A stretch of DNA of 64,000 nucleotides from Burkholderiaceae bacterium (GTDB lineage: Bacteria > Pseudomonadota > Gammaproteobacteria > Burkholderiales > Burkholderiaceae_E). The notes beneath the pieces were generated by a model. The model ran no database searches, was not told where the DNA came from, and saw only the letters and a list, made by a program, of their open reading frames with translations. The translations under genes were made by a program, and so were the position numbers. Below, piece after piece: positions 10,698 to 32,812 of this stretch. Location: contig JAHBZV010000002.1 in NCBI GenBank assembly GCA_019635275.1, forward strand, positions 1-64,000, written 5' to 3'. The stretch's first letter is position 1; each line of letters starts with the position of its first letter.

Positions 10698-10858
10698 TGT
10701 CGTCCCCAGCGTTCGCTGCGCGAGTCGCAGCGGCCCCCGCGGCGTTTCCAACCGCCCGGGCAGACGGTCGAGTTAACACGAACGTCGGCCCGGTGGCAAT
10801 GATTCAGCCCCTTCCATCGGCCAATCCGTTGCAGTGACAACCATTTGGACAGAGAAAG

Positions 10859-12125: not shown

Positions 12126-12676
12126 TGCCGGCCCTCGCGACCGACCCCGTGCTCGGGCACGCCGCGGCAGCGGCCCTGGCAATCGTCCTGCTCGCTGGCG
12201 CCTGGCACAAGTTCGTCGACCTGGACTCGTTCGGCCTGGCAGTCGAGCGTTACCGCCTGCTCGCCCCGGCAGCCGCACGCGCGACCGCCCTGTCACTGCC
12301 GCCGCTCGAGGCGTTCGCCGGGCTCCTGCTGCTGCATCCGGCCTCGCGCGGGGCCGGGGCGGCGCTCGCTGCCGCGGTCTTGTTGCTGGTCACCGGGGCG
12401 GTCGTGATCAATTTGATGCGCGGCCGCCGCGACATCGACTGCGGATGCGGCGCACCGGGCTCGGCGCAGCGCCTGTCGTGGATCCTCGTCGCGCGCAATG
12501 CCGCCCTGCTCGGGATGTGCGCGCTCGCGGTCGCCCCGATGTCGCCGCGCGAGCTGGTCTGGCTCGACGGATTCACGACCGCGTTCTCCGCGCTGGCGCT
12601 CTGGGCGGTCTACGGCGCCGTCAACGAACTGTTCTCCGACCCGCAACGATTCAACGCCTCACGGACCGAATCATGA
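12125..12676 (+). CDS. mauE: MauE-type membrane protein for amine dehydrogenase light-chain maturation
   Basis: This 183-residue integral membrane protein with about five hydrophobic helices carries a DIDCGCGAPG cysteine motif near residue 102. That motif is characteristic of MauE/DoxX-related proteins needed for export or disulfide formation of the multi-disulfide TTQ light chain. The ATG shares one base with the aauB stop (TGATG), and its end overlaps mauD (ATGA). Position between heavy chain and mauD is as in mau and aau operons. Confidence 0.88.
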   Translation: MPALATDPVLGHAAAAALAIVLLAGAWHKFVDLDSFGLAVERYRLLAPAAARATALSLPPLEAFAGLLLLHPASRGAGAALAAAVLLLVTGAVVINLMRGRRDIDCGCGAPGSAQRLSWILVARNAALLGMCALAVAPMSPRELVWLDGFTTAFSALALWAVYGAVNELFSDPQRFNASRTES

Positions 12677-13272
12677 CCGAAGCCCTCGTCGTATCGAACA
12701 TCGTCCTGTGGGTCGCCGTGCTCGCGCTGCTGGGCACGGTATTCGCGCTGGCCCGCCAGATCGGCGTGTTGTACGAGCGCATCGCGCCGATGGGCGCGCT
12801 GATGCTCGACAGCGGCCCGAAGGTGGGCGAAGCCGCGCCTGCGCTGGACCTGGTCACCCTCGACGGCCGGCCGTTCCAGACCGGCGGCGCGCGCCCGAAG
12901 AGCCTGCTGCTGTTCTTCCTCTCGCCCACCTGCCCGGTGTGCAAGAAGCTGCTGCCGATCCTGCAGCGCGTCGCGGTCGACGAAGAGCGGTGGCTCGAAC
13001 TCGCGTTCGCCAGCGACGGCGACCCCGAAGAGCACACGGCGTTTCGCGCCCGCGTCGGACTGCAGGGCCATCCGTACGTGCTCTCTGCAGACCTCGGTAT
13101 GGCCTACCGGATCGGCAAGTTGCCGTACGCGGTGCTCGTCGACGAGTCCGGCAGGGTCCGCGCCAAAGGCCTGGTCAACTCGCGCGAGCAGATCGAAAGC
13201 CTGTTCACCGCCCGCGACCTCGGCGTCGCGTCGGTCCAGGAGTACCTCGGCATGGAGGCGCGCGGCGCATGA
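12673..13272 (+). CDS. mauD: MauD thioredoxin-like methylamine/aromatic amine dehydrogenase accessory protein
   Basis: This 199-residue protein has an N-terminal membrane anchor (about residues 7-27) and a periplasmic thioredoxin fold with the CPVCKK active-site motif near residue 95, the same CPVC motif as MauD. It is thought to form or isomerise the six disulfides of the TTQ light chain; without it the light chain is degraded in Paracoccus. Start and stop both overlap neighbours by four bases, so the set is translationally coupled. Confidence 0.92.
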   Translation: MTEALVVSNIVLWVAVLALLGTVFALARQIGVLYERIAPMGALMLDSGPKVGEAAPALDLVTLDGRPFQTGGARPKSLLLFFLSPTCPVCKKLLPILQRVAVDEERWLELAFASDGDPEEHTAFRARVGLQGHPYVLSADLGMAYRIGKLPYAVLVDESGRVRAKGLVNSREQIESLFTARDLGVASVQEYLGMEARGA

Positions 13273-13799
13273 AATGGCTCGACGACGCATTCGAACGCTC
13301 GACCCGCGCAGCGGCGCAGCGCACCTCGCGGCGCAGCGCGCTGGCGCGCGCCGGACGCTTCCTGGTGGGCGCGGCGCTCGCCCTGCCGGTGCTCCCGTTC
13401 GACCGGACTTCACACGCAGCCGGCGGCCACGGCGGCGGCGGCAAGTCGAAGGGCCCCGACGACCAGCAGTGCGATTACTGGCGCTATTGCGCAGTCGATG
13501 GCTTCCTCTGCTCGTGCTGCGGCGGAACCGTGAACAGTTGTCCGCCCGGCACCGAACCGTCGAAGGTCTCGTGGATCGGCACCTGCCGCAACCCGGCCGA
13601 CGGCAAGGACTACCTGATCAGCTACTACGACTGCTGCGGCAAGGCCGCGTGCGGGCGCTGCCTGTGCAACACGAACCTCGGCGAGCGGCCGGCCTACCGG
13701 ATCACGCTGCACAACGACATCAACTGGTGCATGGGAAGCACCAGCACGATGTTCCACTGCACGGCCTCGCTCGTGGTCGGCATCGCGGACAAGAAGTGA
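13269..13799 (+). CDS. aauA: TTQ amine dehydrogenase light (beta) chain, AauA/MauA-like
   Basis: This 176-residue catalytic subunit carries the tryptophan-tryptophylquinone cofactor. A twin-arginine leader is visible (TSRRSALARAGRFLVG, residues 19-34). The mature part has 14 cysteines, enough for the six disulfides of the family, in the pattern CDYWRYC, LCSCCGG, DCCGK, CGRCLC. The two tryptophans that cross-link to TTQ are present as W102 (VSWIGTC) and W153 (INWCMG). TTQ formation needs oxygen insertion by a MauG-type di-heme enzyme; no mauG lies next to this gene, but two MauG-like genes lie 9 kb downstream in the same gene run. Confidence 0.94.
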   Translation: MKWLDDAFERSTRAAAQRTSRRSALARAGRFLVGAALALPVLPFDRTSHAAGGHGGGGKSKGPDDQQCDYWRYCAVDGFLCSCCGGTVNSCPPGTEPSKVSWIGTCRNPADGKDYLISYYDCCGKAACGRCLCNTNLGERPAYRITLHNDINWCMGSTSTMFHCTASLVVGIADKK

Positions 13800-13815
13800 C
13801 ACCACAGGAGACGAC

Positions 13816-15180
13816 ATGAAGGGGTGGGAGAAACTCTCGGCAGCCGTCGCGCTCGCCGTTGCCTGGGGTTCGGCGGGCGCCGGCGTGAGCGAACAGGAAG
13901 CCGCGCGGCTGGGCAAGGAGCTCACTCCGGTCGGCGCCGAAAGGGCCGGCAACAAGGACGGCACGATTCCGGCCTGGACCGGGGGCGTCACCAAGCCGCC
14001 GGCGGGGTGGAAGGTCGGCAACCCGCGCATCGACCCGTACAAGGACGACAAGGTCCTGTTCTCGATCGACGCGTCGAACGTCGACAAGTACAAGGACCGC
14101 CTGTCCGAGGGGCAGCAGACGCTGATCCGCACGCTCAAGGGCTACCGGATGGACGTCTATCCGACGCGGCGTTCGTGCGGATATGCCGATGCAGTGTACG
14201 AGCGCAGCGCGCAGAACGCCCGCGTGGCCCGGCTCGCCGAAGGGGGCTGGCAGCTCGAGAACGCAGTCGGCGGCGGCGTGCTGTTCCCGATCCCGAAGAA
14301 CGGCGCCGAAGCGGTCTGGAACCACAAGCTTCGGTACCAGGGCGAGGGACGCATCGAGCACTACTCGACGCTGTTCTCGAACAAGAGCGGGAACTTCTCG
14401 CAACTGGCGCAGAACCAGTGGCTCATCTACCCGCTCCACGAGGCGTCCACCAAGAGTTTCGACGACGTGAAGAAGTCGGAAGCCAAGATCCTCAATGAAG
14501 TCGTGGCGCCAGCCGCGCGCGCCGGCGAGATGATCCTGGTTCACTGGTTCATGGACCGCGGCTCCGATGCGTGGCTGTACTTCCCGGGGCAGCGTCGCGT
14601 GCGCCGCGCGCCCTCGTTCGCCTACGACAACCCGGTGCCCGGCTACGAGAACCTCGAGACGGTCGACCAGTACCCCATGTACGCGGGCGCGATGGACCGC
14701 TACGACTGGAAGCTGGTCGGCAAGAAGGAGTTGTACATCCCGTACAACAACTGGAAGCTGATCGACAAGAGCCGCAAGTACAAGGACATCTACCTGCCCG
14801 AGTACGTCAACCGCGACCTGATGCGCTACGAGCTGCACCGCGTCTGGGTCATCGAGGCGACGCTGAAAGAGGGCATGCGGCACATCTTCCCGCGCCGGGT
14901 GATGTACATCGACGAGGACAGCTGGACGCTGATCCTCACCGACCTCTACGACGCGCAGGGCAAGATCTGGCGCGTCCAGGAGGCGAGCCTCTGGGTCGCG
15001 CCCGAGATTCCGGCCTGCGTGAGTCAGGAATTCGTCGGCTACGACCTCAACGTCGGCCGCTACATCGCCGAGACGGCGACGCAGGAGCATCCGCCCACCG
15101 ACTGGCTCGCCGGCCGTGAGGGGCGCATCAACCCGAACATGTTCAGCCCCGACGAGCTGCGCCGGCGCGGCGAGCGCTGA
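13816..15180 (+). CDS. DUF1329 periplasmic lipoprotein-carrier-like protein
   Basis: This 454-residue protein has a signal peptide (to about residue 23) and the DUF1329 sequence pattern: ELTPVGAERAGNKDGTIPAW near the start, then YDNPVPGYENLETVDQYPMY and YIPYNNWKL. The family has a LolB/LolA-like fold and usually sits beside DUF1302 porins and RND permeases, as here. AGGAG at 13806-13810 lies five bases before the ATG. It follows the light chain by 16 bases, so it appears to belong to the amine operon. It may shuttle a hydrophobic molecule between membranes. Confidence 0.88.
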   Translation: MKGWEKLSAAVALAVAWGSAGAGVSEQEAARLGKELTPVGAERAGNKDGTIPAWTGGVTKPPAGWKVGNPRIDPYKDDKVLFSIDASNVDKYKDRLSEGQQTLIRTLKGYRMDVYPTRRSCGYADAVYERSAQNARVARLAEGGWQLENAVGGGVLFPIPKNGAEAVWNHKLRYQGEGRIEHYSTLFSNKSGNFSQLAQNQWLIYPLHEASTKSFDDVKKSEAKILNEVVAPAARAGEMILVHWFMDRGSDAWLYFPGQRRVRRAPSFAYDNPVPGYENLETVDQYPMYAGAMDRYDWKLVGKKELYIPYNNWKLIDKSRKYKDIYLPEYVNRDLMRYELHRVWVIEATLKEGMRHIFPRRVMYIDEDSWTLILTDLYDAQGKIWRVQEASLWVAPEIPACVSQEFVGYDLNVGRYIAETATQEHPPTDWLAGREGRINPNMFSPDELRRRGER

Positions 15181-15261: not shown

Positions 15262-17094
15262 ATGACCAGCAGCATCGGCAGCACGGGGGTAGCGCGGGCG
15301 GTCGCAGGCGCGCTCGCCCTCGTGGCGACAGGAGCGATCGCCCCGCCGGCGCACGCCTTCAAGTTCGGCAATGAATCGGTCTCTGGAAACTTCGACTCGA
15401 CGATCTCGTTCGGGTTCATCAAGCGCCTGCAGGGCACGAGTCGCAGCATCATCGGCAACGACAACGGCGGCAACGTTCCGACCACGAGCGAGCTGGAATC
15501 GCGGGTGAACGCCTATTACGGCGGAGGCGCGATCGCCAATCCCGACTTCAACTTCCTGCAGGCCGACGACGGCAACCTGAACTACAAGAAGGGCGACATC
15601 GTCTCCGCGGCGCTCAAGGGCACGCACGAACTGGTGCTGCATGGGCCGGGCGGCCTGAGCGGCATGTTGCGGGCGACCTGGTTCAAGGACTGGAAGACCG
15701 ACGACACCGACCGCACGCCGCTCGATCCCGCGTCGCGCGCGGTGGCGGTCGACAAATGGACCTGGCTCGACGCCTGGGTCGCGAAGGAGTTCGAGATTGC
15801 CGGTCGCCCGGCGAAGGTCAAGGTCGGCAATCAGGTGATCAGCTGGGGCGAGGATGTCTTCATCTACGGTGGCGTCAACGTCACCAACGCGATCAACCTG
15901 CAGAACGCTCACGTACCCGGCACGCAGCTCAAGGAGATCTTCAAGCCCGCTCCGATGATCTCGCTGAACGCCAACATTGCCGAGGGCCTGAGCGTCGAGG
16001 GGTACTACCAGTTCCGCTGGAACGCGTTCACCTTCGACCCGGTGGGCACCTTCTTCTCGGTGACCGACGTGATCGGCAAGGGAGGACGCAACGCGTTCAT
16101 CAACTCCACGCTGCTCGGCCTTCCGCCCGGGACGGTCGGAGACATCGGGACGATCAACCCGACCACCGGCCAGCCGTTCACGCTCGCGGAGCTGGCGGCG
16201 GGCACCGCGACGGTGCCGGTCGCCGGCGTCGCGTTGCCGACGCTCGTCTACCCGATGGCGACCAGGGAACCGAAGGACTCGGGCCAGTTCGGCCTGGCCA
16301 CCCGATGGTTGCCGGCCGACTCCGAGACCGAGTACGGCCTTTACTGGATCCGCTACCACGACAAGCTGCCCTTCGTCGGGTTCAACTTCGACCCCGGCCG
16401 CCACACGACCAACGTCGCCGGCCTCGCCTACTACGTCGACTACGGCGAGAGCCGCAACGTCTTCGGCGTATCGGCGAACACACGGGTCGGCACCTGGGCG
16501 GTCGGCGCCGAGCTTTCGTACCGGCCCAAGGACAGCGTCGGCATCGACACGACTGTGCCCGCGAGCGGCAAGTACTCGGTGTTCGATTACGTGGGCAAGA
16601 CCACCCGCGGCTTCGTCGAAGAGCGCAAGTGGCAGGCCCACCTGACGGGCTTCAAGCTGATGGCGCCGGCCGACCTCGGCGGCCTGATCGGCAGGCTCGG
16701 CGCCGAAGAGGGCTATTTCCTCGGCGAGGTCGCCGTCGCGCACTACCCCGGGCTCGACCGCTCCGGTCGCATCCCGTACCTGCTGACCGACTATTCGCTT
16801 CCCGATCGAACGTCGGCCGGCATGGTGATCTCCACCGGACTCACCTACGCGAACGTCGGCGACAGCGGCTGGAACATGATGCCGCAGCTCGACGTGGCCT
16901 GGGACTTCCACGGCACCTCGCCGAACGCGGTGCCGTTCGTGGAAGGCCGCAAGGCGGCAACTCTGTCGCTCAACTTCAACCGCTCCGACAAGTGGAAGGC
17001 CGGGATCGGCTACACCCGCTTCTGGGGCGGCGGCGGTAACAACCTGATGAGGGATCGTGACTTCCTGTCGGTGATCACCTCCGTGTCGTTCTGA
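15262..17094 (+). CDS. DUF1302 outer-membrane beta-barrel protein
   Basis: This 610-residue secreted protein has a signal peptide ending at AHAF (about residue 33), alternating hydrophobic/polar strands, and a C-terminus ending in phenylalanine (VITSVSF), the usual outer-membrane barrel signature. NFDSTISFGFIKRLQG and VKVGNQVISWGEDVF are recognisable DUF1302 elements. GGAGG precedes the ATG. The constant pairing with DUF1329 and an MMPL permease suggests an outer-membrane channel for a hydrophobic compound. Confidence 0.88.
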   Translation: MTSSIGSTGVARAVAGALALVATGAIAPPAHAFKFGNESVSGNFDSTISFGFIKRLQGTSRSIIGNDNGGNVPTTSELESRVNAYYGGGAIANPDFNFLQADDGNLNYKKGDIVSAALKGTHELVLHGPGGLSGMLRATWFKDWKTDDTDRTPLDPASRAVAVDKWTWLDAWVAKEFEIAGRPAKVKVGNQVISWGEDVFIYGGVNVTNAINLQNAHVPGTQLKEIFKPAPMISLNANIAEGLSVEGYYQFRWNAFTFDPVGTFFSVTDVIGKGGRNAFINSTLLGLPPGTVGDIGTINPTTGQPFTLAELAAGTATVPVAGVALPTLVYPMATREPKDSGQFGLATRWLPADSETEYGLYWIRYHDKLPFVGFNFDPGRHTTNVAGLAYYVDYGESRNVFGVSANTRVGTWAVGAELSYRPKDSVGIDTTVPASGKYSVFDYVGKTTRGFVEERKWQAHLTGFKLMAPADLGGLIGRLGAEEGYFLGEVAVAHYPGLDRSGRIPYLLTDYSLPDRTSAGMVISTGLTYANVGDSGWNMMPQLDVAWDFHGTSPNAVPFVEGRKAATLSLNFNRSDKWKAGIGYTRFWGGGGNNLMRDRDFLSVITSVSF

Positions 17095-17179
17095 AGCCCG
17101 CGCGCGGCGGGCCGCCCAGCCAGCCGCCGCGCCCCACCGCGCCTGCATCGTCCGCGGCCACCGGACCCCTTCCTCGTTC

Positions 17180-19540
17180 ATGATCGCGAACTTCGTCGAC
17201 CGCCTGGAGCGCCTGATATTCGGCCATCGCGGCATCCTGCTCGTGCTGCTCGGCCTGCTCACCGCGGTCATGGCGCTTTTCGCGAGCCAGTTGCGCATGG
17301 ACGCTGGCTTCGACAAGCAGCTTCCCCAGGACCACGAATACGTCCGCACGTTCTTCCAGTACCGCGAGCAGGTGTTCGGCGCCAACCGCGTGATCGTGGT
17401 GGTCCGCGCGCGCAACGGCGAGATCTGGAGTGCGCCGGGCCTGCGGCGGCTCTACGACGTCACGCAGTCGGTGATGTTCCTGCCGGGGATCGACCGGCGC
17501 ACGGTGACCTCGCTGTGGACCCCGAACACGCGGGTGCTCGGCGTGACCGAAGAGGGCTTCAAAGCCGAGGACGTCATCGGCGGCGACATCACGCCCGATC
17601 GGCTCGATCCGGGCCGCATCGAGCGGATCCGCGCCAATTCGCTGGCGGGGGGCTACATCGGCACGCTGGTCTCCACCGACAACGCCGCTGCAATGGTCGT
17701 CGCCGACCTGCTCGAGACCGACCCGGCCACCGGCAAGCGCCTCGACTACCTCGACTTCGCGCGGCGCATCGAGGAAGAGGTGCGCGGCCGGCACGAGGAT
17801 GCGTCGTTCGAAGTGCAGATCATCGGCTTTGCGAAGCAGATCGGCGACATCGCCGACGGCGCCCGCAGCGTTGTCGAATTCTTCACGCTGGCGTTCGTGC
17901 TCACCGCGCTGTCGGTGTGGCTCTACTGCCGATCGGTCGCGCTCACCGCGATCACGCTGCTTTCCTCGCTGGTGTCGGTGGTCTGGCAGTTCGGCACGCT
18001 GCGGCTGCTCGGCTACGGACTCGATCCCCTTGCGGTACTGGTTCCCTTCCTGGTGTTCGCGATCGGCGTTTCGCACGGCGTGCAGCAGATCAACTTCGTG
18101 GTCAAGGGCGTGTGCGCCGGCGCCGACAGCATGACGGCGGCGCGGCGCGCCTTCAGCGGGCTGCTGGTGCCGGGCTCGATGGCGCTGGTGACCGCATTCG
18201 TCGGCTTTGCCACGCTGACGCTAATCCCGATCCCGATGATCCGCGAGCTCGGGATTACCGCGTCGATCGGCGTGGCGTACAAGATCGTGACGAACCTGGT
18301 GATGCTGCCGGTGTGCGCCTCGTTCCTGCGCTTCGACGACGCCTACGTCGCGCGGCTCACGCGGCTGCGCGCGGCGCGCGAGAAGGCGATGGCGGTCCTC
18401 GGACGGGTCGCCGAGACGCGCAACGCGGCGATCGGCACGCTGGTCTGCGCGGCACTGTTCGCGGTGGCTTTCGTGCAGAGCCAGGGTCGACACGTCGGGC
18501 ACCTCGCCTCGGGCGCGCCCGAGCTGCGCCCCGATTCGCGCTATAACCTCGACGCGGCGTCGATCGTCGGCAGTTTCGACCTCGGCCTCGACGTGCTCAC
18601 CGTGGTCTTCGAGACGCCGGACGATGGCTGCTACCGGCTCGACGTGATGGCCCACGTCGACCAGTTCGCCTGGCACATGCAGAACGTTCCGGGGGTGATC
18701 TCGGTCGCCTCGGTCGCACAGCTCGCCAAGCAGGCCTACTCGGGCACCAACGAGGGCCACCCGAAGTGGACCGCACTCGCGGCCGACGAGCGCTCGCTGG
18801 CGAACTCGGTGGGGCTGATCCCCGAAGGGACCGGACTGTTCAACCCCGGCTGCACCGTGCTGCCGGTCAACGTCTACCTCACCGACCACAAGGCGTCGAC
18901 GGTCAAGCAGGTCATTGCGGCCGTTCGCGAGTTCCGCGACAGGGAGAAGCTCGACGGCGTGAACCTTCGCCTCGCGAGCGGCAACGTGGGTGTGCAGGCG
19001 GCGACGAACGAGGTGCTCGAGACAACCGAGCTGCCGATGATGCTCTGGGTCTACGCGACGATCGTGGCGCTGGTCTTCTTCACCTACCGTGACTGGCGCG
19101 CAATGATCGCCTGCTGCCTGCCGCTCACGCTGGCGACCTTCCTCGGCTACTGGTTCATGAAGGCGCTCGACATCGGGCTGACGGTGGCGACGCTGCCGGT
19201 AATGGTGCTGGCGGTAGGCATCGGCGTCGACTACGCGTTCTACATCTACAACCGACTGCAGCTGCACCTTTCGCAGGGCGCGGACATCGTGGTCGCGTTC
19301 AAGCAGGCGCTGATGGAGACCGGCAACGCGACGATCTTCACCGCGATCACGCTGTCGGTGGGGGTGGCCACCTGGTCGTTCTCCGACCTGAAGTTCCAGG
19401 CGGACATGGGGATGCTGCTCACGTTCATGTTCATGGTGAACATGCTGATGGCGATCACGCTGCTGCCGTCGCTCGCGGTGATGATCGACGCGCTGGTTCC
19501 CCGGAGGCGTCCGGTGCGCTCGCCGTTCCTCGTCCACTGA
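17180..19540 (+). CDS. MMPL/RND-family inner-membrane transporter
   Basis: This 786-residue protein has two repeats of one plus five membrane helices with large periplasmic loops, as in the MMPL/HpnN branch of RND proteins. The second half has FLGYWFMKALDIGLTVATLP and VLAVGIGVDYAFYIYNRLQ, where the in-membrane Asp of the proton relay (GIGVDYAFY) is present. The first half has the equivalent FAIGVSHGVQQINF with no Asp there. With DUF1329 and DUF1302 it forms a likely three-layer export or uptake route for lipid-like substrate or product. Confidence 0.9.
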   Translation: MIANFVDRLERLIFGHRGILLVLLGLLTAVMALFASQLRMDAGFDKQLPQDHEYVRTFFQYREQVFGANRVIVVVRARNGEIWSAPGLRRLYDVTQSVMFLPGIDRRTVTSLWTPNTRVLGVTEEGFKAEDVIGGDITPDRLDPGRIERIRANSLAGGYIGTLVSTDNAAAMVVADLLETDPATGKRLDYLDFARRIEEEVRGRHEDASFEVQIIGFAKQIGDIADGARSVVEFFTLAFVLTALSVWLYCRSVALTAITLLSSLVSVVWQFGTLRLLGYGLDPLAVLVPFLVFAIGVSHGVQQINFVVKGVCAGADSMTAARRAFSGLLVPGSMALVTAFVGFATLTLIPIPMIRELGITASIGVAYKIVTNLVMLPVCASFLRFDDAYVARLTRLRAAREKAMAVLGRVAETRNAAIGTLVCAALFAVAFVQSQGRHVGHLASGAPELRPDSRYNLDAASIVGSFDLGLDVLTVVFETPDDGCYRLDVMAHVDQFAWHMQNVPGVISVASVAQLAKQAYSGTNEGHPKWTALAADERSLANSVGLIPEGTGLFNPGCTVLPVNVYLTDHKASTVKQVIAAVREFRDREKLDGVNLRLASGNVGVQAATNEVLETTELPMMLWVYATIVALVFFTYRDWRAMIACCLPLTLATFLGYWFMKALDIGLTVATLPVMVLAVGIGVDYAFYIYNRLQLHLSQGADIVVAFKQALMETGNATIFTAITLSVGVATWSFSDLKFQADMGMLLTFMFMVNMLMAITLLPSLAVMIDALVPRRRPVRSPFLVH

Positions 19541-19563
19541 ATCCTTCACCGATCGGGAGCCCT

Positions 19564-20046
19564 ATGCTCGAACGCCTGATCGCCCGCCTTTCCGGCCAGC
19601 CCGACCCGCCACCGGGCGACGATCCCGCCGCGCGACGCAGGCTCGCGGTAGCCGCGCTGCTGGTCGAGGCGGTGCGCGTCGACCGCCAGGCGGACGCCGA
19701 GGAACGCGACGCAGTCAAGTCACTGCTGCGCGAGCGCTTCGGGCTGCCCGACGACGAGGCCGAGCACCTGGTCGAACTGGCCGAGGCACGCTTCGCCTCG
19801 GTGCTCGACGACTGGATATTCGCGCGTGCGGTCAGGCAGGGTTACGACCACGACGAACGCGCCGAGATCCTCGGCATGCTCTGGGAGACGGTCTACAGCG
19901 ACGGGCGGCTGGCGGCCTTCGAAATGGACCTGCTGCAGCGGCTGACCGGGGCGCTCGAAGTCGAGCCGGCCGCCGCCGAGGCGGCGCGTGCGCGCGCGTT
20001 CGCGCGCATCGGGTTGAGCGAGCCCGAAAGCGGAGCCGACGAATGA
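19564..20046 (+). CDS. TerB-like domain protein
   Basis: This 160-residue soluble helical protein matches the TerB fold: LAVAALLVEAVRVDRQADAEER near residue 29, then GMLWETVYSDGRLAAFEMDLLQRL near residue 108. Two acidic helix-loop elements are seen. TerB domains bind metal or membranes in varied settings, so tellurite resistance is not implied. It overlaps the next gene by four bases (ATGA) and sits inside the operon. Confidence 0.8.
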   Translation: MLERLIARLSGQPDPPPGDDPAARRRLAVAALLVEAVRVDRQADAEERDAVKSLLRERFGLPDDEAEHLVELAEARFASVLDDWIFARAVRQGYDHDERAEILGMLWETVYSDGRLAAFEMDLLQRLTGALEVEPAAAEAARARAFARIGLSEPESGADE

Positions 20047-21038
20047 ATCCGCGCGCACGCAGGACGCTGCGGCTGCTCGCGTCGATCGCCGCCTGCATGG
20101 CGACCGCGCTGCCGGGGCCCGGCGCCCGCGCGGCCGAAGGCGCCCAGAACCGCGCCCCGGCGGCCAGTGTCACCCGGCAGCAGGCGCAAAGAGTGGCGCA
20201 CCCGGAACGCGCGCCGCTGATGGCCGCTGCCCGGGCTGGCGCTCGCATCGTCGCGGTCGGCGACTTCGGCACGGTGCTGCTCTCCGACGACGATGGCGCG
20301 AGCTGGCGGCAGGCCACCGAGGTGCCGACGCGGGTGACGCTCACTGGAGTGCAGTTTCTCGACGCCGGGCACGGCTGGGCGGTGGCGCACGGCGGGATCG
20401 TCCTCGCGACCGAAGATGGCGGCGAGCACTGGCGCATCGCACATCGCGCCGGAGCCGGCACCTCGTTCTTCGCGGTGCGCTTCGCCGACGCGATGCACGG
20501 ATTGGCGGTAGGCGCCTTCGGCGCCGCGATCGCCACCGAAGACGGGGGCCGGACCTGGCGCGAGGTCGCCATCGGCCAGGGCGAGTTCTCGGATCGCCAC
20601 CTGTATCAGATCTTTGCCGACGCGGACGGAACCACCTGGATCACCGCCGAAAGCGGTGTCGTCTACCGCTCGACCGACTGGCGAACGTTCGTTCCGGTGT
20701 CGCTGCCGTATCGGGGCTCGATCTGGGGTGGCATGGCGCTGCCCGACGGCGCGATCCTGGTCTGGGGCATGGGCGGGCACGTGCTGCGCAGCCGGGATGC
20801 CGGCGCGTCGTGGCGCGAAATCGCAAGCGGCACGGAGAACCCGCTCACCACCGGGTTGCTGCTGGGCAAGCGGCTCGTACTCGCGGGACTCGGCGGCGCG
20901 GTGCTGACCAGCGACGACCTCGGCGCGAGCTTTCGCGCCGAGATCCGCCCCGACCGCCTGTCCTACACCGCCGCGGTGGAGGCCGCAGGCGCGCCGCTGC
21001 TCACCAGCCTCTCCGGAATCGCTGGGACGCGCCACTGA
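20043..21038 (+). CDS. YCF48/BNR-repeat periplasmic beta-propeller protein
   Basis: This 331-residue secreted protein has a signal peptide (to about residue 29) and repeated short blades of the pattern LLSDDDGASWRQ, LATEDGGEHWRI, IATEDGGRTWRE and LRSRDAGASWRE. These are the aspartate-box repeats of YCF48/sialidase-like propellers. Such proteins accompany DUF1329/DUF1302/MMPL modules in many proteobacteria. It probably acts as an assembly or periplasmic scaffold; no enzyme active site is seen. Confidence 0.85.
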   Translation: MNPRARRTLRLLASIAACMATALPGPGARAAEGAQNRAPAASVTRQQAQRVAHPERAPLMAAARAGARIVAVGDFGTVLLSDDDGASWRQATEVPTRVTLTGVQFLDAGHGWAVAHGGIVLATEDGGEHWRIAHRAGAGTSFFAVRFADAMHGLAVGAFGAAIATEDGGRTWREVAIGQGEFSDRHLYQIFADADGTTWITAESGVVYRSTDWRTFVPVSLPYRGSIWGGMALPDGAILVWGMGGHVLRSRDAGASWREIASGTENPLTTGLLLGKRLVLAGLGGAVLTSDDLGASFRAEIRPDRLSYTAAVEAAGAPLLTSLSGIAGTRH

Positions 21039-21085
21039 ACACCCGGCCGCTGCGCCGCAGCGGCCAGCCACCAAGGAGGAGAGAG

Positions 21086-22579
21086 ATGAACCAGTCCGTA
21101 CAGAGCCAGCAACCCGAGCTCGCCGCGATCCGGCAGAAGATGTTCGTCGACGGCAAGTTCGTCGACGCGCGATCCGGCAAGACGCTGCCGGTGTTCAATC
21201 CGGCCACCGGCGCCGAGATCGCCCGCGTACCCGATGCGCAAGCCGAGGACGTCGATTCGGCGGTTCGCTCGGCGCGCGCGACCTTCGATTCGGCGGCGTG
21301 GCAGGGCATGCTGCCCGCCGAGCGCGAGCGGCTGCTGCTGAAGCTGGCCGACCTGATCGAGCAGCACGGCGAGGAGCTCGCGCGGCTCGAGACGCTGAAC
21401 AACGGCAAGCTGCTGATGTTCTCGCGGATGCTCGAGGTGGGCGCCAACGCGCAGTGGACGCGCTACATGGCCGGCTGGGCCACGAAGATCGAAGGCTCGA
21501 CGCTGGACGTGTCGATTCCGTTTCCCCCCGGCGTGCGCTACACCGCGATGACCCGTCGCGAACCGGTCGGCGTCGTCGGCGCAATCGTGCCATGGAACTT
21601 CCCGCTGCTGATGGCGATGTGGAAGATCGCGCCGGCGCTGGCCTGCGGCTGCACCGTGGTGCTCAAGCCGGCCGAGGAGACGCCGCTCACCGCATTGCGG
21701 CTGGCCGAGCTGGTGATGGAGGCGGGTTTTCCGGCGGGCGCGGTCAACGTGGTCACCGGCTACGGCGAGAGCGCCGGTGCGGCACTGGTGCGCCATCCGG
21801 GGGTCAACAAGATCGCCTTTACCGGCTCGACCGAGGTCGGCAAGATCATCGGCCGCAGTTGCATGGACGACATGAAGCGCGTCTCGCTCGAGCTGGGCGG
21901 CAAGAGCCCGGTAATCGTGCTCGACGACTGCGATCCCGCAGTCGCGGTCGCGGGCGCGGCCGGCGCGATCTTCTTCAACCACGGTCAGGTCTGCACCGCG
22001 GGCTCCCGACTGTTCGTGCACAGGAGCCGCTACGACCAGGTCCTCGCCGGGCTCGCGTCCGCGGCCGAGTCGACGAAGCTCGGCGACGGTTTCGACGAGA
22101 CCGCGCAGATGGGCCCGATGGTGTCGGCGACGCATCGCGACCGCGTGGTGCGCTACATCGAGTCGGGCAAGGCCGAAGGGGCCGAACTGCTCGCCGGCGG
22201 CCAGGCGCAGCCCGGATCGGGCTACTTCGTGCGGCCCACCGTGTTCTCGAACACCACCGGCAAGGACCTCACGATCTCGCGCGAGGAGATCTTCGGGCCG
22301 GTGGTCGTGGCCACGCCCTTCGACGACCTCGACGACGTGGCGCGCAAGGCCAACGACAGCCGCTACGGACTGGGCGCCAGCATCTGGACCAACAACCTGA
22401 CGCAGGCCTACCGGCTGATCCCGAAAGTGCAGGCCGGCACCGTCTGGCTGAACTGCCACAACATGGTCGACCCGAACCTTCCGTTCGGCGGCTACAAGGA
22501 CTCCGGCGTCGGGCGCGAGCACGGCCGGGCGATGATCGACGTCTACACGGAGACGAAGTCGGTGTGCGTGGCCTATTGA
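21086..22579 (+). CDS. NAD-dependent aldehyde dehydrogenase, phenylacetaldehyde dehydrogenase-like
   Basis: This 497-residue enzyme oxidises an aldehyde to the acid with NAD. AAGGAGGA lies five bases before the ATG. Seen motifs are VPWNFPLLMAMWKIAPALA, FTGSTEVG, the catalytic Glu269 in LELGGK, and the nucleophile Cys303 in FNHGQVCTAGSR. The protein resembles the FeaB/StyD phenylacetaldehyde dehydrogenase group. In this operon it would remove the aldehyde made by the amine dehydrogenase; for phenylethylamine that would give phenylacetate. The substrate assignment is inference from context and resemblance. Confidence 0.88.
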   Translation: MNQSVQSQQPELAAIRQKMFVDGKFVDARSGKTLPVFNPATGAEIARVPDAQAEDVDSAVRSARATFDSAAWQGMLPAERERLLLKLADLIEQHGEELARLETLNNGKLLMFSRMLEVGANAQWTRYMAGWATKIEGSTLDVSIPFPPGVRYTAMTRREPVGVVGAIVPWNFPLLMAMWKIAPALACGCTVVLKPAEETPLTALRLAELVMEAGFPAGAVNVVTGYGESAGAALVRHPGVNKIAFTGSTEVGKIIGRSCMDDMKRVSLELGGKSPVIVLDDCDPAVAVAGAAGAIFFNHGQVCTAGSRLFVHRSRYDQVLAGLASAAESTKLGDGFDETAQMGPMVSATHRDRVVRYIESGKAEGAELLAGGQAQPGSGYFVRPTVFSNTTGKDLTISREEIFGPVVVATPFDDLDDVARKANDSRYGLGASIWTNNLTQAYRLIPKVQAGTVWLNCHNMVDPNLPFGGYKDSGVGREHGRAMIDVYTETKSVCVAY

Positions 22580-22947
22580 GTTCGGGCAGGCTCGCGGCCG
22601 GGCTGCTGGCGGCCGGGCTGCTCCACGGCGGCGCGGCAGCGGCCGCGCCGCCCGCAGTCGCATCGGCGCCGCAGAACGCGGCGACGCTGTACGCACTGAA
22701 CTGCATGGGCTGCCATCCGCCGCCGCGCACGCCCGTCGCGGACCCCGGGCCCCTGCGCGGCGAGTTCTATCTGAACGCGCGCGGCCGCAACTTCTACATC
22801 CGCGTGCCGCAGGACGGCAAGCGCGTGCTCGGCCCCGACGAGGAAGCGCGGCTGCTCGACGAGATCATGACCTGGAAGCGCAGTTGCGCGGTGATCCTGC
22901 AGGAGGCGCCCCAGGTGAACTACAGCGGCGAGCGCTTCGTCAAATGA
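22564..22947 (+). CDS. Small secreted mono-heme c-type protein
   Basis: This protein of about 127 residues begins at a GTG (22564) inside the end of the aldehyde dehydrogenase, giving a proper signal peptide (VRGLLSSGRLAAGLL and an alanine run). A TTG at 22576 is the alternative. It has one CXXCH site, NCMGCHPPP, and ends four bases into the next gene. The rest, including FYIRVPQDGKRVLGPDEE and MTWKRSCAV, matches no family I recognise with certainty. It is the likely electron carrier for the MauG-like proteins that follow. Confidence 0.75.
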   Translation: MRGLLSSGRLAAGLLAAGLLHGGAAAAAPPAVASAPQNAATLYALNCMGCHPPPRTPVADPGPLRGEFYLNARGRNFYIRVPQDGKRVLGPDEEARLLDEIMTWKRSCAVILQEAPQVNYSGERFVK

Positions 22948-24110
22948 GTGCACGTGCGCTGCTGCGGGTCGTCGGCGCGGCGCTGCCTTCCGCGCTGCGC
23001 TTCGTGCCGCACACCGTGCTGGTCTGCGGGCTGCTCGCGGCGACGCCCGCACCCACGCCCGCGGCGACCCCTGCCGCGGCGCCCGCGCGCGCAGCCGACC
23101 GCGTCTTGCCGCCACCGTCGCCGGCAGCCGGCGCAGCCCTGCTCGAGCTCGGCCGCCACCTGTTCTTCGAGTCGCGCCTGTCCGGCGACGGCAGCCGCAG
23201 CTGCGCGAGCTGCCACGCGCCGGCGCGCGGCTTCTCGGAGGGGGCGGCGCTGTCACGCGGCTACAACCACACCGGGCACTTCCGCAACGCGCCCGGCCTG
23301 CTCGGCCTGCGGCTGAAGGAGCGACTCGGCTGGGACGGGCGCTACCGCTTCGACGAGCTGCCGAAGCTGGTCGAGGAGATGCTGACCTCGCCGATCACGA
23401 TGAACGGCAACCCGGGCATCATCGCCGAGCGCGTCCGCCAGGTGCCCCAGCTGCTGCAGTTGTGGCAGCGGGCGTTCGGCGAGCGCACGCAGCCCTCGTT
23501 CGACGGCGTGGCACGCGCGATCGCCGCCTGGTCGGCCGCGCACGACGGCGGCGACACCGCGGTCGACGCGGCGCTGCGCGGCGACGCGTCGGCGCTGTCG
23601 CCGCGGGCCGCCGAGGGGCTGCGGCTGTTCACCGGCAAGGCGGGCTGCTCGCGCTGTCATTCCGGGCCTGCATTCTCCGACGGCCAGGCGCACCGGCTCG
23701 GCGTTCCGGAATCGCCGCAGATCCTGCGCGACCCCGAGCGCACGGTCGCGCTGCTGGCTCATCACGCGAGCCGCGGCTCGGCCGACCCGATGAGCGAGCG
23801 CAGCGACACCGGTGTGCATGCGCTCACCCGCAGGGCCGCCGACCGGGGTCGCTTCTTCACGCCGGGCCTGCGCGGCGTGGCGCAGACCGCCCCGTACATG
23901 CACAACGGCATCCTGCCCGATCTCGCGGCCGTCGTCGCGTTCTACGACCGCGGCGGAGGCCGCGGCTCCGAGACGAAGCCACTCGGCCTGACCGCGGGCG
24001 AGCGCGAAGCGCTGGTGGCGCTTCTCGAGGCGCTGACGCCGCGCACCCCGGTCGCCGTGACCCCGCCGCCCGCCTTCGATTACGCCACGCAGGCCGGGGC
24101 GGGGCGATGA
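22944..24110 (+). CDS. MauG/CcpA-type di-heme cytochrome c protein (first copy)
   Basis: This 388-residue secreted protein has two heme c sites, CASCH (87-91) and CSRCH (235-239), in the bacterial cytochrome c peroxidase/MauG architecture. It also has FFTPGLRGVAQTAPYMHNG. The later AAVVAFYDRGG puts a Tyr (334) where MauG has the unusual axial Tyr ligand, if my alignment is right. MauG uses peroxide or oxygen to finish TTQ in the light chain, so this is the best candidate for maturing AauA. The start overlaps the previous stop (ATGA) and its own end overlaps the second copy. Confidence 0.82.
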   Translation: MSARALLRVVGAALPSALRFVPHTVLVCGLLAATPAPTPAATPAAAPARAADRVLPPPSPAAGAALLELGRHLFFESRLSGDGSRSCASCHAPARGFSEGAALSRGYNHTGHFRNAPGLLGLRLKERLGWDGRYRFDELPKLVEEMLTSPITMNGNPGIIAERVRQVPQLLQLWQRAFGERTQPSFDGVARAIAAWSAAHDGGDTAVDAALRGDASALSPRAAEGLRLFTGKAGCSRCHSGPAFSDGQAHRLGVPESPQILRDPERTVALLAHHASRGSADPMSERSDTGVHALTRRAADRGRFFTPGLRGVAQTAPYMHNGILPDLAAVVAFYDRGGGRGSETKPLGLTAGEREALVALLEALTPRTPVAVTPPPAFDYATQAGAGR

Positions 24111-25309
24111 GGATCCGGCTCGCGACACGTGGGCTGCTAGCGCTCGCGGCGAGCGCCGCGGTCGCCGTCGCCGCGCTGTCGGTCGCGCGCGCGCCGGCGC
24201 CGGCATCGGCCGACCGGATCCCCGCGCTGGCGCTGCTGCCTCCGGTCCCGGTGCCGGCCGACAACCCGATGAGCGCGGCCAAGGTCGAGCTCGGGCGGCT
24301 GCTGTTCTTCGATGCGCGCCTTTCGGGCGACACCTCGACCTCATGCGCGTCGTGCCACGTCGCGCAGATGGGCTGGACGCACGACGATGCGCTCGCCCCC
24401 GGCTATCCGGGCCACCGGCTGTGGCGCAACAACCCCACGGTGCTCAACGCCGCGCATTTCCGCCGGCTGATGTGGGACGGCAGCCTCGACCGTCTCGAGG
24501 TGCAGGCGCGATCGGCGATGCAGGCGCCGGTCGAGGGCAACGGCAACGCCGCCATCGTCGAAATGCGGCTGCGGCTGGTACCGGAATACGTCGACCGCTT
24601 CCGCGAGGCGTTTGGCACCGATTGGCCGAAGCTCGACGATGCCTGGCGGGCGATCGCGGCCTTCGAGCGCACCGTCGTCTCCGATCCGCGCAAGGTGCCG
24701 TTCGACCGGTTCCTGGCCGGCGACGCGAAGGCGCTGACTGATGCGGCGAAGCGCGGTTACGCGCTGTTCACCGGCAAGGCGGGCTGCATCGACTGCCACC
24801 ACGGCCCGCTCGCGAGCGACGAGGGCTATCACGCGCTCGGCGTCCCGCGCCAGTCGCTGTACGACTCCAGCGCGCTGGTGCAGGTCGCGGTGCGCTGGCA
24901 GAACGCCCAGCGCGACGCGCCGCGCGCGCTGTACCGTAGCGCCGAGGAAGACCTCGGCCGTTACTACCGCACCCGCGATCCGGCCGACATCGGCAAGTTC
25001 CGCACCCCGTCGCTGCGCGAGCTGCGCTACACCGCCCCCTACATGCACAACGGCGTGTTCCGCACGCTGCAGGAGGTGGTCGACTTCTTCGATCGCGGCG
25101 GCGGCGACGCGCCCAACAAGTCGCCGCTGCTGCGCCCGCTCGGGCTCACCGGCGACGAGAAGCGCGACCTGGTCGCCTTCCTCGAATCGATGAGCATGGA
25201 CGAGCCGCTGCTCATGGCCGCGCCCGAGCTGCCGCCGATGCAGCCGCTGGTCGAGGACGCCGCAGGCCGCTGCAGCACGCACGACGCACCGGGAGGGGGG
25301 GCGGGATGA
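24107..25309 (+). CDS. MauG/CcpA-type di-heme cytochrome c protein (second copy)
   Basis: This 400-residue secreted paralogue has heme sites CASCH (80-84) and CIDCH (227-231), KFRTPSLRELRYTAPYMHNG, and VVDFFDRGG. The residue aligned with Tyr334 of the first copy is Phe328, so the high-spin/low-spin heme environments of the two copies probably differ. It is coupled to both neighbours by ATGA overlaps. A peroxidase role or a partner role in cofactor maturation are both possible. The 35-residue C-terminal extension after MSMDEP is rich in Pro and Ala. Confidence 0.82.
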   Translation: MRIRLATRGLLALAASAAVAVAALSVARAPAPASADRIPALALLPPVPVPADNPMSAAKVELGRLLFFDARLSGDTSTSCASCHVAQMGWTHDDALAPGYPGHRLWRNNPTVLNAAHFRRLMWDGSLDRLEVQARSAMQAPVEGNGNAAIVEMRLRLVPEYVDRFREAFGTDWPKLDDAWRAIAAFERTVVSDPRKVPFDRFLAGDAKALTDAAKRGYALFTGKAGCIDCHHGPLASDEGYHALGVPRQSLYDSSALVQVAVRWQNAQRDAPRALYRSAEEDLGRYYRTRDPADIGKFRTPSLRELRYTAPYMHNGVFRTLQEVVDFFDRGGGDAPNKSPLLRPLGLTGDEKRDLVAFLESMSMDEPLLMAAPELPPMQPLVEDAAGRCSTHDAPGGGAG

Positions 25310-27645
25310 CGAACGCCGGCAGGCTCTGGAACCGGTTTGTGATGAACCCCCGCGGTTGGTGGCTGCCGCTGCTCGCGGTGCTCGCGATCGGCGTGGGCAG
25401 CATGTTGTACATGGGCACGCGCACCTACCTCGATGCGCCGCCGGTGCCCGATTTCGTCGATGAGCGCGGCGTCGCGGTGGTCCCTGCGGCGGCGATCAAG
25501 CGCGGGCAGGCGGTGTTCCTGAAGTACGGCCTGATGAACTACGGCAGCATGTTCGGCGACGGCGCCGGCCGCGGCCCGGACTTCACCGCCGACGCGCTGC
25601 ACCAGATGGCGCGCGCGATGCGCGATCATCATGCGTCCGCCGACGGCGTCGACGCCGATTCCGCGCTCGCCGCGGCGCAGCGCGAGATCAAGCGCAACCG
25701 CCACGATGCGATCACTGGCACGGTCACTGTCGGCGCAGCGCAGGCCTATGCCGCGCGCGAGATCGGGCGCCGCGTGGCCGCAATGTTCCGCGGCGAAGGC
25801 AGCGAAGCCTTCCACCCTGCCGGGTTCATCGCCGACGAGGCCGAACTGCGCGACCTCGCGGCGTTCTTCTTCTGGGGCGCGTGGGTCTGCGGCGTCGAGC
25901 GGCCCGGCAAGGCCTACACCTACACGCACAACTGGCCGTACGACGAACTGGCCGGCAACCGGCCGAGTGCGCAGGTCATGCTGTGGAGCGTGATCGCGGT
26001 GCTCGCGCTCGTGGCCGCGCTCGGCGCGGTGCTGTTCCTGTACGGCCGCTACGCGTCGATCGCCGGATGGCGTCCTGCGCAGCGCGGCGACGCGTTCCCG
26101 CAGGCGGGGTCGATGGCCGGCGCCGCGGCGGTCGATGCGCTGCGCCCCGGCGCGCTGCAGCGCGCGACCTACAAGTTCTTCGCCGCCGCCGTGGTGCTGT
26201 TCGTGCTGCAGGTCGCCGCCGGCATCCTGACCGTGCACGACTTCCTCGGCATCACCCGCGTGCTCGGTGTCGATCTCGCGCAGGCGCTGCCGATTCCGGT
26301 GGTCCGCGGCTGGCACCTGCAGCTCGCGCTGTTGTGGATCACCGCCTGCTGGGTCGGCGCGTCGATCTTCGTCGTGTCGACGGCGACGCCGCGGGCGCCG
26401 GCCGGACAGTTGCGGCGGGTCGAGCGGCTGTTCGGCCTGTTCGTCTTCACCGCGGTCGGCGGACTGGCCGGCGTGGCGCTCGGGCCGCACGGTCTGCTCG
26501 GCGACTGGTGGCACCTGCTCGGCAGCCAGGGCTGGGAGTTCGTCGAGCAGGGCCGGCTCTGGCAGGCGCTGCTTTTCGCGGTGTTCGCGCTGTGGTGCCT
26601 GGTGCTCGCGCGAGCGGTCCGGCCGATCTGGCGCTCGGGCGATGCGTGGATGCTGCCGAAGTGGCTGCTCTACTGCGTCGCCTGCGTGCTGGTGCTGTTC
26701 GTCTCAGGGTTCGTCGCAACGCCGCAGACCAACTTCGTGGTCGCCGATTTCTGGCGCTGGGCGGTGATCCACATGTGGGTCGAGGCGTTCTTCGAAGTCT
26801 TCACGACCGCCGTGCTCGCGTACTTCATGGTGCTCATGGGACTCGTGAGCCACGCCGCGGCCTCGCGCATCGTCTATCTCGCCGCGCTGCTGTTCCTTGG
26901 TTCGGGCCTGCTCGGCATCTCCCACAACTTCTACTGGAACGCCAAGCCGGTCGAGACGCTGGCGATCGGCAGCGTTTTCTCGACGCTGCAGGTGGTGCCG
27001 CTGATCCTGCTCACGCTCGAAGCCTGGCAGTTCCGCAACGCGCCGCAGCGCGCCGGCGGCGCAGGCGGCTTCGGCCAGTCGGAGGCGTTCCTGTTCCTGC
27101 TCGGCGTGAACTTCTGGAACTTCCTGGGCGCCGGCATGTTCGGCTTCATGATCAACCTGCCGATCGTCAACTACTACGAGCACGGCACCTACCTGACGGT
27201 GAACCACGGCCACGCCGCGCTGATGGGCGTCTACGGGAACCTCGCGATCGCGACGATCGTCTTCTGCGCGCGCTGCCTGGTCGAGCCGGCCCGCTGGAAC
27301 GTCGCACTGCTGCGCCGCGTCTTCTGGTCGCTCAACGTCGGGCTGCTGCTGATGGTGGCCGCCGATCTCTTTCCGGTGGGCATCGCGCAGCTGCTGGACG
27401 TGCTCGAAAACGGCTTCTGGCACGCGCGCTCGCAGGCGTTCATCGGCAGCGACCTGTTCCAGGCGCTCACCTGGGCGCGCATCGTCGGCGGCGCGCTGTT
27501 CGTGCTCGGAGGCGTGCTGCCGCTCGCCTGGTTCGTCGTGAGCCGCGCCGCCGCGCTGAAGGCGCCGACGGCCGAGCCGTCGGAGGATGCGGCGACCCGC
27601 GTCATTCCGGGCGTGGCCGCGCTGCCCGAGAGCCAGCGCGGCTGA
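25306..27645 (+). CDS. nod: Nod-like non-canonical quinol NO reductase (putative nitric oxide dismutase)
   Basis: This 779-residue membrane protein has the qNOR layout: N-terminal helix, a periplasmic cytochrome-like domain without heme (to about residue 220), and about 13 helices of the heme-copper fold. Heme ligands are kept (H337 in GWHLQL; H634 and H636 in NHGHAAL), as are FeB ligand H489 and E493 in HMWVEAFFE. The usual HH pair is H540-N541 (GISHNFYW). The active-site Glu 21 residues on is Gln562 (STLQVVPL). The quinol-site Glu (VEG motif) is absent and the C-terminal quinol Asp is Gly729 (RIVGGALF). Loss of quinol binding with His-to-Asn and Glu-to-Gln is, as I recall the published comparisons, the hallmark of NO dismutases (2 NO to N2 and O2). 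It is coupled to the second MauG-like gene (ATGA). Confidence 0.82.
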   Translation: MTNAGRLWNRFVMNPRGWWLPLLAVLAIGVGSMLYMGTRTYLDAPPVPDFVDERGVAVVPAAAIKRGQAVFLKYGLMNYGSMFGDGAGRGPDFTADALHQMARAMRDHHASADGVDADSALAAAQREIKRNRHDAITGTVTVGAAQAYAAREIGRRVAAMFRGEGSEAFHPAGFIADEAELRDLAAFFFWGAWVCGVERPGKAYTYTHNWPYDELAGNRPSAQVMLWSVIAVLALVAALGAVLFLYGRYASIAGWRPAQRGDAFPQAGSMAGAAAVDALRPGALQRATYKFFAAAVVLFVLQVAAGILTVHDFLGITRVLGVDLAQALPIPVVRGWHLQLALLWITACWVGASIFVVSTATPRAPAGQLRRVERLFGLFVFTAVGGLAGVALGPHGLLGDWWHLLGSQGWEFVEQGRLWQALLFAVFALWCLVLARAVRPIWRSGDAWMLPKWLLYCVACVLVLFVSGFVATPQTNFVVADFWRWAVIHMWVEAFFEVFTTAVLAYFMVLMGLVSHAAASRIVYLAALLFLGSGLLGISHNFYWNAKPVETLAIGSVFSTLQVVPLILLTLEAWQFRNAPQRAGGAGGFGQSEAFLFLLGVNFWNFLGAGMFGFMINLPIVNYYEHGTYLTVNHGHAALMGVYGNLAIATIVFCARCLVEPARWNVALLRRVFWSLNVGLLLMVAADLFPVGIAQLLDVLENGFWHARSQAFIGSDLFQALTWARIVGGALFVLGGVLPLAWFVVSRAAALKAPTAEPSEDAATRVIPGVAALPESQRG

Positions 27646-32577: not shown

Positions 32578-32628
32578 CGGTCGTCTCGCAGGGTGCTCGA
32601 TCGGCGCCAGTGTGCAATGCCGATCGAT

Positions 32629-32644
32629 AGTTGTCAATGCAACT
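32629..32644. promoter_or_regulatory. Inverted repeat AGTTG-N6-CAACT, candidate MarR operator
   Basis: A perfect 5-base inverted repeat with a 6-base centre lies 52 bases upstream of the minus-strand operon start. The same GTTG-N6-CAAC layout recurs at 32752-32765, which supports a dimer-binding site. Confidence 0.45.
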
Positions 32645-32688
32645 AAATATCCGGATCGGATGGCTTTCTGGGCGTCGCGTTCGACACG

Positions 32689-32704
32689 CATTGCACTTGC
32701 AATG
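32689..32704. promoter_or_regulatory. 16-base palindrome CATTGCA-CT-TGCAATG, candidate operator
   Basis: Both 7-base arms match exactly around a 2-base centre. It is in the middle of the 235-base divergent intergenic region, which is AT-richer than its surroundings. Size and symmetry fit a MarR-type dimer site; the marR gene is the last of the plus-strand unit. Confidence 0.5.
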
Positions 32705-32751
32705 AGAGATCCGTCTGCCCGCTTCCCGCGCCGAAGAAAACCCCTGAATTG

Positions 32752-32765
32752 GTTGCAAACACAAC
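32752..32765. promoter_or_regulatory. Inverted repeat GTTG-N6-CAAC, candidate operator
   Basis: This 4-base inverted repeat with a 6-base centre copies the design of the one at 32629-32644 and lies 48 bases before the aldehyde dehydrogenase ATG, where it could overlap that promoter. Confidence 0.4.
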
Positions 32766-32812
32766 AGTCTGGTGCTTATGATACGTCCCGGTACAACGCA
32801 TCGACGACGAGC

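Follow-up and report, generated by a model that had tools for sequence, protein, structure and literature searches.

What would the oxygen released by a nitric oxide dismutase (Nod) serve in a bacterium whose nod gene closes a gene cluster for the oxidation of aromatic amines? The question is raised by a stretch of 64,000 nucleotides from a Burkholderiaceae bacterium (assembly GCA_019635275.1, contig JAHBZV010000002.1, positions 1 to 64,000 of the forward strand), referred to here as the window. One of its genes had been read, in an original prediction made from the DNA letters, as a putative nod in a betaproteobacterial-type genome, a setting that agrees with its nearest named relative, Lautropia sp. 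SCN 69-89 (96% identity). The answer put forward here, tentatively and as one that could well prove wrong, is that the gene product is a member of the Nod family predicted to catalyse 2 NO -> N2 + O2, and that the O2 would likely be spent on the MauG-type maturation of tryptophan tryptophylquinone (TTQ), the cofactor of the amine dehydrogenase encoded in the same cluster. The proposed role is new; the enzyme itself is of a known kind.

The nod neighbourhood as such is already in print and is not new. In its available sections, a recent study (PMC13386854; mSystems, June 2026) describes Burkholderiales nod genes, from metagenome-assembled genomes of lake sediment, that have mauABED and a pair of cytochrome c peroxidase genes as neighbours, identifies no O2-consuming partner for them, and states the use of Nod-made O2 outside methanotrophs as an open question. 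In the open-access literature, searched by titles and the starts of abstracts, this was the only one among the papers listed found to link Nod to an amine dehydrogenase or to MauG, and neither the assignment to the aromatic amine type, nor the gene overlaps, the gammaproteobacterial case or the TTQ proposal set out below were found there.

The nod product and its active site

The reading frame of nod is open from an ATG start to a TGA stop. Its protein has two Pfam matches, NorB_cytochrome_c-like (residues 50-212) and COX1 (residues 287-730), and zero matches in an NCBIfam profile search at E <= 0.001. The nearest solved sequence is that of the Geobacillus quinol-dependent nitric oxide reductase (qNOR; 3ayf, 480 bits). 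An AlphaFold2 model built on a 42-row alignment (pLDDT 85.1, pTM 0.88) compares with 3ayf at template-modelling scores of 0.87 and 0.90 over 757 columns with 35% identity, and this model, together with the COX1 match, upholds the earlier claim of a qNOR fold.

Despite this fold, the residues expected of a qNOR are not all in place. Alignment with 3ayf sets N541 opposite the FeB ligand His560, Q562 opposite the catalytic Glu581, and two glycines, G315 and G729, opposite the quinol-site residues Glu332 (the Glu of the "VEG" motif) and Asp746, with V319 opposite Phe336. The remaining haem and FeB ligands, H337, H489, E493, H540, H634 and H636, are retained. All of the residues that the original prediction had named in the FeB and haem sites and at G729 are as it had given them, and the VEG motif indeed lacks its Glu. 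The predicted loss of the quinol site holds for Glu332 and Asp746 and seems not to extend to His328, which appears to be kept as H311, a residue that the prediction had passed over. His328 is reported as replaced in the nods of soil (PMC10286720, in the part available), although the published alignment may be set differently.

The FeB His pair, the catalytic Glu and the quinol-site Glu and Asp of a qNOR are hence not found intact, and the changes listed for Nods by Ettwig 2012 (PMC3413370, in its available part) are present at the FeB His, the catalytic Glu and two quinol-site positions, in support of the earlier Nod reading. By its sequence, the nod product is a Nod-family member, a new enzyme of an established family, and O2 production is predicted for it. 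That the protein might still be an NO reductase, forming N2O with electrons drawn from amine oxidation through the neighbouring cytochrome c and not from quinol, would suit a quinol site that is altered at two positions yet seems to keep His328, as well as the small overlapping cytochrome c gene upstream in the cluster. This is nevertheless quite improbable, given the exchanges at the catalytic Glu and at an FeB His, and given that the protein itself contains no CxxCH site for haem c.

A residue set shared across the family

Of 7991 candidates scored in a protein search with nod as the query, 2069 matched at E <= 1e-30. The H540-N541 pair and Q562 occur in 121 of the 121 sequences made up of the query and the best 120 of these matches, by which a mutation of a single genome or a sequencing error is ruled out. 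A genome scan for nod confirmed 255 stretches, from which 80 loci were retained; the peptide HNFYWNAK was among its search peptides, so that the scan leans to Asn. The joint alignment of 229 rows combines the 121 proteins with 79 scan loci out of 80, L024 having given no usable row, and with 29 relatives from the same order. In a sample of 399 genomes of that order, 53 matches beyond the window's own were obtained, all at 39% identity or less, and residues were checked in the 29 with fetched DNA, the other 24 being unchecked.

Position 541, equivalent to His560 of 3ayf, is occupied by Asn in 200 rows and by His in 29. Because the 200 Nod rows are defined by this Asn, the independent evidence is their agreement with the other positions and with the trees. 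The Glu581 position is Gln in 199 of the 200 Asn rows (1 gap) and Glu in all 29 His rows, and the Asp746 position is Gly in 194 of the 200 (3 gaps, 2 Ala and 1 Val) and Asp in all 29. At the Glu332 position there are 0 Glu and 1 Asp among the Asn rows, with 27 Glu and 2 Asp among the His rows, and a His opposite His328 is found in 181 of the 200 Asn rows and in all 29 His rows.

Two trees were built by a quick method with a midpoint root and no bootstrap, one of 106 rows and one of 98 rows after removal of long branches. Both separate the Nod rows from the qNOR rows with support of 100 in the Shimodaira-Hasegawa-like approximate likelihood ratio test (SH-aLRT). The original prediction had offered the tree and a realignment as tests of itself: the protein of the window falls in the Nod clade, apart from the qNORs, and no shift of the alignment with 3ayf brings back the His or the Glu. 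An ordinary qNOR with a shifted alignment is ruled out by the residue alignments and both trees. The Asn/Gln/Gly set is a trait of the family, and its distribution agrees with a clade that stands separate from the qNORs.

Algoriphagus and Scalindua, in both of which nod has been reported (PMC10264387 and PMC10359470, in the parts available), fall on the Nod side of the tree. The Nods of Methylomirabilis oxyfera and HdN1 were absent among the matches listed in the protein searches and the genome scan, and neither name occurs among the 120 matches listed for a protein search with an Arg315-bearing relative; the likeness to them is drawn through the published residue criteria, not through direct sequence comparison.

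The gene cluster closed by nod

The cluster spans 10974 to 27645 on the plus strand with nod as its last gene (Table 1), and its five terminal genes, styD, the cytochrome c gene, the two dihaem genes (MauG1 and MauG2) and nod, are joined by successive 4-base overlaps. A TTQ light chain of the aromatic amine type adjoins the heavy chain; it scores 191.8 bits against aromatic amine dehydrogenase (2i0r) versus 161.2 bits for the best methylamine dehydrogenase. The neighbouring enzyme is accordingly predicted to be an aromatic amine dehydrogenase that oxidises arylalkylamines, and the type of the light chain together with StyD would point to phenylethylamine-like substrates. The small cytochrome c had no Pfam match at E <= 0.0001 in the sole Pfam search covering it. 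As read from an alignment with classical peroxidases, not with MauG itself, MauG1 has Tyr at the Met-ligand position in 8 of 10 matched copies and His in 2 of 10 across the 15 loci scanned, Tyr being the residue in the window.

Table 1. Genes of the nod-terminated cluster and its divergent regulator
Feature	Position	Strand	Basis or remark
AraC-family regulator, divergent from cluster	9696..10751	-	
TTQ amine dehydrogenase heavy chain	10974..12125	+	Frame open from 10845; GTG at 10974 is the likely start
MauE	12125..12676	+	Pfam
MauD-like protein	12673..13272	+	Place, thioredoxin-like sequence by eye, matches in relatives; no family search
TTQ light chain, aromatic amine dehydrogenase type	13269..13799	+	Best match 2i0r
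DUF1329 protein	13816..15180	+	
DUF1302 protein	15262..17094	+	
MMPL/RND-type transporter	17180..19540	+	
TerB-domain protein	19564..20046	+	
Ycf48-like BNR protein	20043..21038	+	
StyD-type phenylacetaldehyde dehydrogenase	21086..22579	+	NF045735, 900.2 bits, cut-off 850
Small one-haem c-type cytochrome (CMGCH)	22576..22947	+	TTG start; 4-base overlap on each side
MauG1, dihaem CCP_MauG protein	22944..24110	+	Two CxxCH; 4-base overlap with MauG2
MauG2, dihaem CCP_MauG protein	24107..25309	+	Two CxxCH; 4-base overlap with nod
nod, putative nitric oxide dismutase, 779 amino acids	25306..27645	+	Residues, Pfam, alignment with 3ayf, model, trees

FNR-type boxes were found neither in 10752-10973, before the heavy chain, nor from 24000 to the end of nod; the window holds 15 loose matches to such a box, with 4.19 expected. 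Downstream of the cluster, at 32612-34297, a second aldehyde dehydrogenase lies past a class-III aminotransferase and two minus-strand genes resembling phosphoenolpyruvate synthase.

Proposed role in cofactor maturation

During turnover, TTQ dehydrogenases pass their electrons to carriers and need no oxygen. Formation of the TTQ cofactor does require oxygen, and a cell producing such a dehydrogenase during denitrification would need a source of trace O2. As far as the available descriptions go, MauG uses H2O2 to oxidise two Trp residues by six electrons and places the second oxygen onto a Trp that already bears the first, which is believed to be introduced autocatalytically. The O2 is predicted to come from Nod and to be used by the dihaem proteins encoded between the dehydrogenase genes and nod.

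In this scheme the cluster would be transcribed as one unit, with NO supplied by the NirS of the same cell during denitrification. Nod would release O2 from this NO, and the two dihaem proteins would use the O2, or H2O2 derived from it, for the oxidation of the light chain's two Trp. The mature dehydrogenase would then convert arylalkylamines to aldehydes, which the StyD-type enzyme would convert to arylacetates. The demand for O2 would come to a few molecules per molecule of enzyme. A broader form of the proposal, which makes Nod a built-in O2 generator for cofactor biogenesis, such that a TTQ amine dehydrogenase is matured without air in denitrifiers that feed on aromatic amines, is possible but rather doubtful.

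Linkage of nod to amine oxidation genes

The genes for cytochrome c, MauG1, MauG2 and nod stand together in 13 of the 80 loci (L001, L002, L004-L010, L013, L015, L023 and L030). All seven relatives with fetched upstream DNA (L175-L181) have the cluster from AraC to nod in the window's order, with an aldehyde dehydrogenase match at its place in five of them and none in L178 and L179. The linkage persists to about 70% nod identity and takes more than one form. The amine genes of Sulfuritalea (L008, L010 and L013) are divergent, in a different arrangement with nod, and in the gammaproteobacterium L022 (6955-12259), not a member of the linked clade, nod and the genes of a TTQ amine dehydrogenase are arranged head to head with no dihaem pair, the listed starts of the heavy chain (9814, minus strand) and nod (9932, plus strand) being 117 bases apart. 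At the locus L003 (8791-12334), which falls within the linked clade, the AraC gene is found beside nod and the amine genes are not, a light chain being located elsewhere in the genome.

The light-chain family PF02975 was searched in 50 nod genomes, which cover 50 of the 80 loci, and was found in 17, that is, in 17 of 24 proteobacterial genomes and 0 of 26 others. The order sample has it over cut-off in 23 of 399 genomes, the window genome included. The difference between 17/24 proteobacterial nod genomes and 22/398 of the order sample corresponds to a Fisher p of 1.4e-14, and outside the linked clade p is 0.002 for 4/10, or 0.013 for 3/9 with one sister pair merged, all figures that are weakened by kinship and by a background drawn from a single order.

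Two genomes of the window genome's genus (G102 and G179) lack a TTQ light chain and have a qNOR-like match of 36 to 37% identity, with the residues of G102 unchecked. In the window genome there is Nod but no qNOR, and this difference suggests a gain of the whole cluster. Beyond the Proteobacteria, 31 nod loci (those listed, Bacteroidota or similar) have a small neighbour that by eye is like an Rrf2-type regulator, and mostly planctomycetal loci have in common neighbours of about 547 amino acids (10 loci) and 451 amino acids (9 loci), in each case with no family search.

Metabolic setting and competing uses of Nod

NirS-like proteins (PF02239 matches > 490 bits) are present in 10 of 12 nod genomes of the group, NarG is over cut-off in 10 of 15, NirK is over cut-off in 0 of 15, and the NosZ propeller occurs in 14 of 15. 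The closest relatives, G399, G400 and G407, have both NarG and NirS-like genes, and the window genome, which is 86.82% complete, carries NosZ, BoxB and BcrC and has no second NOR over cut-off. Besides Nod, a qNOR match occurs in 1 of 15 genomes and a cNOR-like match in 3 (G399, G400 and G402, three of the closest genomes searched), and 11 of 15 are without a second NOR-like match at E <= 1e-8. With NosZ in 14 genomes yet no other NOR in 11, the N2O would need a different origin, or a NOR that escaped detection.

The scarcity of other NORs, along with the NirS-like genes, would also be expected if Nod were mainly an NO sink that protects the denitrifying cell, with the amine genes co-used under the same conditions and the O2 respired. 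Detoxification of NO is suggested in the available sections of PMC13386854, which also name NO- and stress-responsive regulators near other nods. Such a role is a serious contender but unlikely, since it leaves the translational coupling of nod to the dihaem proteins and the amine pathway, in more than one arrangement, unexplained, and since a cNOR-like gene is also present in three of the closest genomes.

Alternatively, the O2 of Nod could feed the ring opening of benzoyl-CoA by BoxB, downstream in the pathway. BoxB is over cut-off in 14 of 15 nod genomes, and some of these genomes, the Sulfuritalea G405 and G406 as well as G404 and G408, are without BcrC, of the O2-free benzoyl-CoA reductase, over cut-off. 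However, 9 of 15 genomes, that of the window among them, do have BcrC over cut-off, which weakens BoxB as the sole reason for Nod, and within the cluster of the window no boxB or paaA was seen. PaaA, the phenylacetate-specific oxygenase, is over cut-off in only 2 of 12 genomes, so that a supply of O2 to this phenylacetyl-CoA epoxidase was rejected for the group. Ring opening by BoxB is thus an improbable purpose for Nod.

Evidence for and against cofactor maturation

TTQ maturation as the likely consumer of the O2 is supported by the Nod residues and clade, the operon layout, the linkage and its divergent arrangements, the enrichment of the light chain, the H2O2-driven insertion of oxygen into Trp by MauG, the NirS-like genes and the scarcity of a second NOR. 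Several observations weigh against it. Nod activity is unproven in general, and no Nod enzyme has been isolated or purified so far, as stated in the available sections of PMC13386854. The window genome, at its level of completeness, has none of NirS, NirK or NarG over cut-off. The dihaem proteins reach only 153.0 and 211.5 bits against the NCBIfam MauG cut-off of 443.85, and 160.6 and 214 bits against the MbnH cut-off of 362.85; as the curated MauG score is missed, they are named only MauG-like dihaem proteins. The best-scoring PDB entries for both are cytochrome c peroxidases, with MauG lower, and where classical peroxidases have their Met ligand, MauG2 has Phe in the window and in all of the 14 copies matched, as read in the same way and across the same 15 loci as for MauG1. 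The TTQ light chain was not found in 7 of the 24 proteobacterial nod genomes nor in any of the 26 others searched, for which Nod must have other uses, and part of the linkage is shared descent, because all linked nods group in a single clade (SH-aLRT 98 and 99 in the two trees).

Amine clusters without nod bear on the same point. The controls were 20 light-chain regions from 17 Burkholderiales genomes of the order sample, four of the regions being extended; the sixteen unextended ones reach only about 10 kb per side, several regions end at contig ends, and 0 of 20 have a nod match. The run of cytochrome c, MauG1 and MauG2 occurs in one control only, that of G083 (L161), where the amine cluster is otherwise the same and an AioB/AioA-like (arsenite-oxidase-like) pair replaces nod after the dihaem genes (L161:4014-7167), at scores just below the curated cut-offs (93.2 vs 95.65 and 358.4 vs 359.05 bits). 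The G083 genome has no Nod match, and the dihaem pair accordingly has no need of nod. The other 19 of 20 regions have neither nod nor the dihaem pair, so that neither is generally required for an amine dehydrogenase of this kind.

The linkage could also be one of neighbourhood only, in which nod joined an amine cluster once and was co-inherited without a common task. The single clade of linked nods, the AioBA-like pair of G083 in the place of nod, and L003, of the same clade but without amine genes beside nod, would all agree with this. It is given little credence here, since the linkage has been kept across the nod divergence noted above and despite the rearranged genes of Sulfuritalea, and is met again beyond the clade, in L022.

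A conserved nod-ending cluster, taken together with a cofactor that is built with oxygen, offers a concrete and testable answer to what the O2 of Nod serves. If TTQ maturation is that answer, Nod O2 would have a job beyond hydrocarbon activation for which trace amounts are sufficient, and oxygen-dependent protein modification would be possible inside anoxic cells. A nod gene in genomes from wastewater, anammox or groundwater would then be no sign by itself of methane or alkane oxidation.

Comparison with known systems

The nod product shares with the qNOR 3ayf its overall fold and the remaining haem and FeB ligands, and is set apart by the replacement of the FeB His, the catalytic Glu and the quinol-site Glu and Asp. 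With the putative Nods of Methylomirabilis, HdN1, Algoriphagus and Scalindua it has in common the qNOR fold, the FeB Asn, a Gln where qNORs have their catalytic Glu, and an altered quinol site, and those of Algoriphagus and Scalindua belong to the same clade. The nod of Methylomirabilis is found near methane monooxygenase, according to the available sections of PMC13386854, whereas that of the window lies in a cluster for a TTQ amine dehydrogenase.

The dehydrogenase itself is closest to the aromatic amine dehydrogenase of Alcaligenes faecalis (2i0r), which provides the best match to the light chain and likewise has its heavy chain, MauE, MauD-like protein and light chain in one run, in the gene order aauBEDA. 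Unlike the Alcaligenes cluster, the run in the window continues through DUF1329, DUF1302, MMPL, StyD, cytochrome c and the dihaem pair to nod. The Burkholderiales nods of PMC13386854, compared by description only and from its available sections, are alike in that two dihaem peroxidase-type genes and mau genes adjoin nod; here, by contrast, the dehydrogenase is assigned to the aromatic amine type, and the O2 is proposed to be consumed in TTQ maturation.

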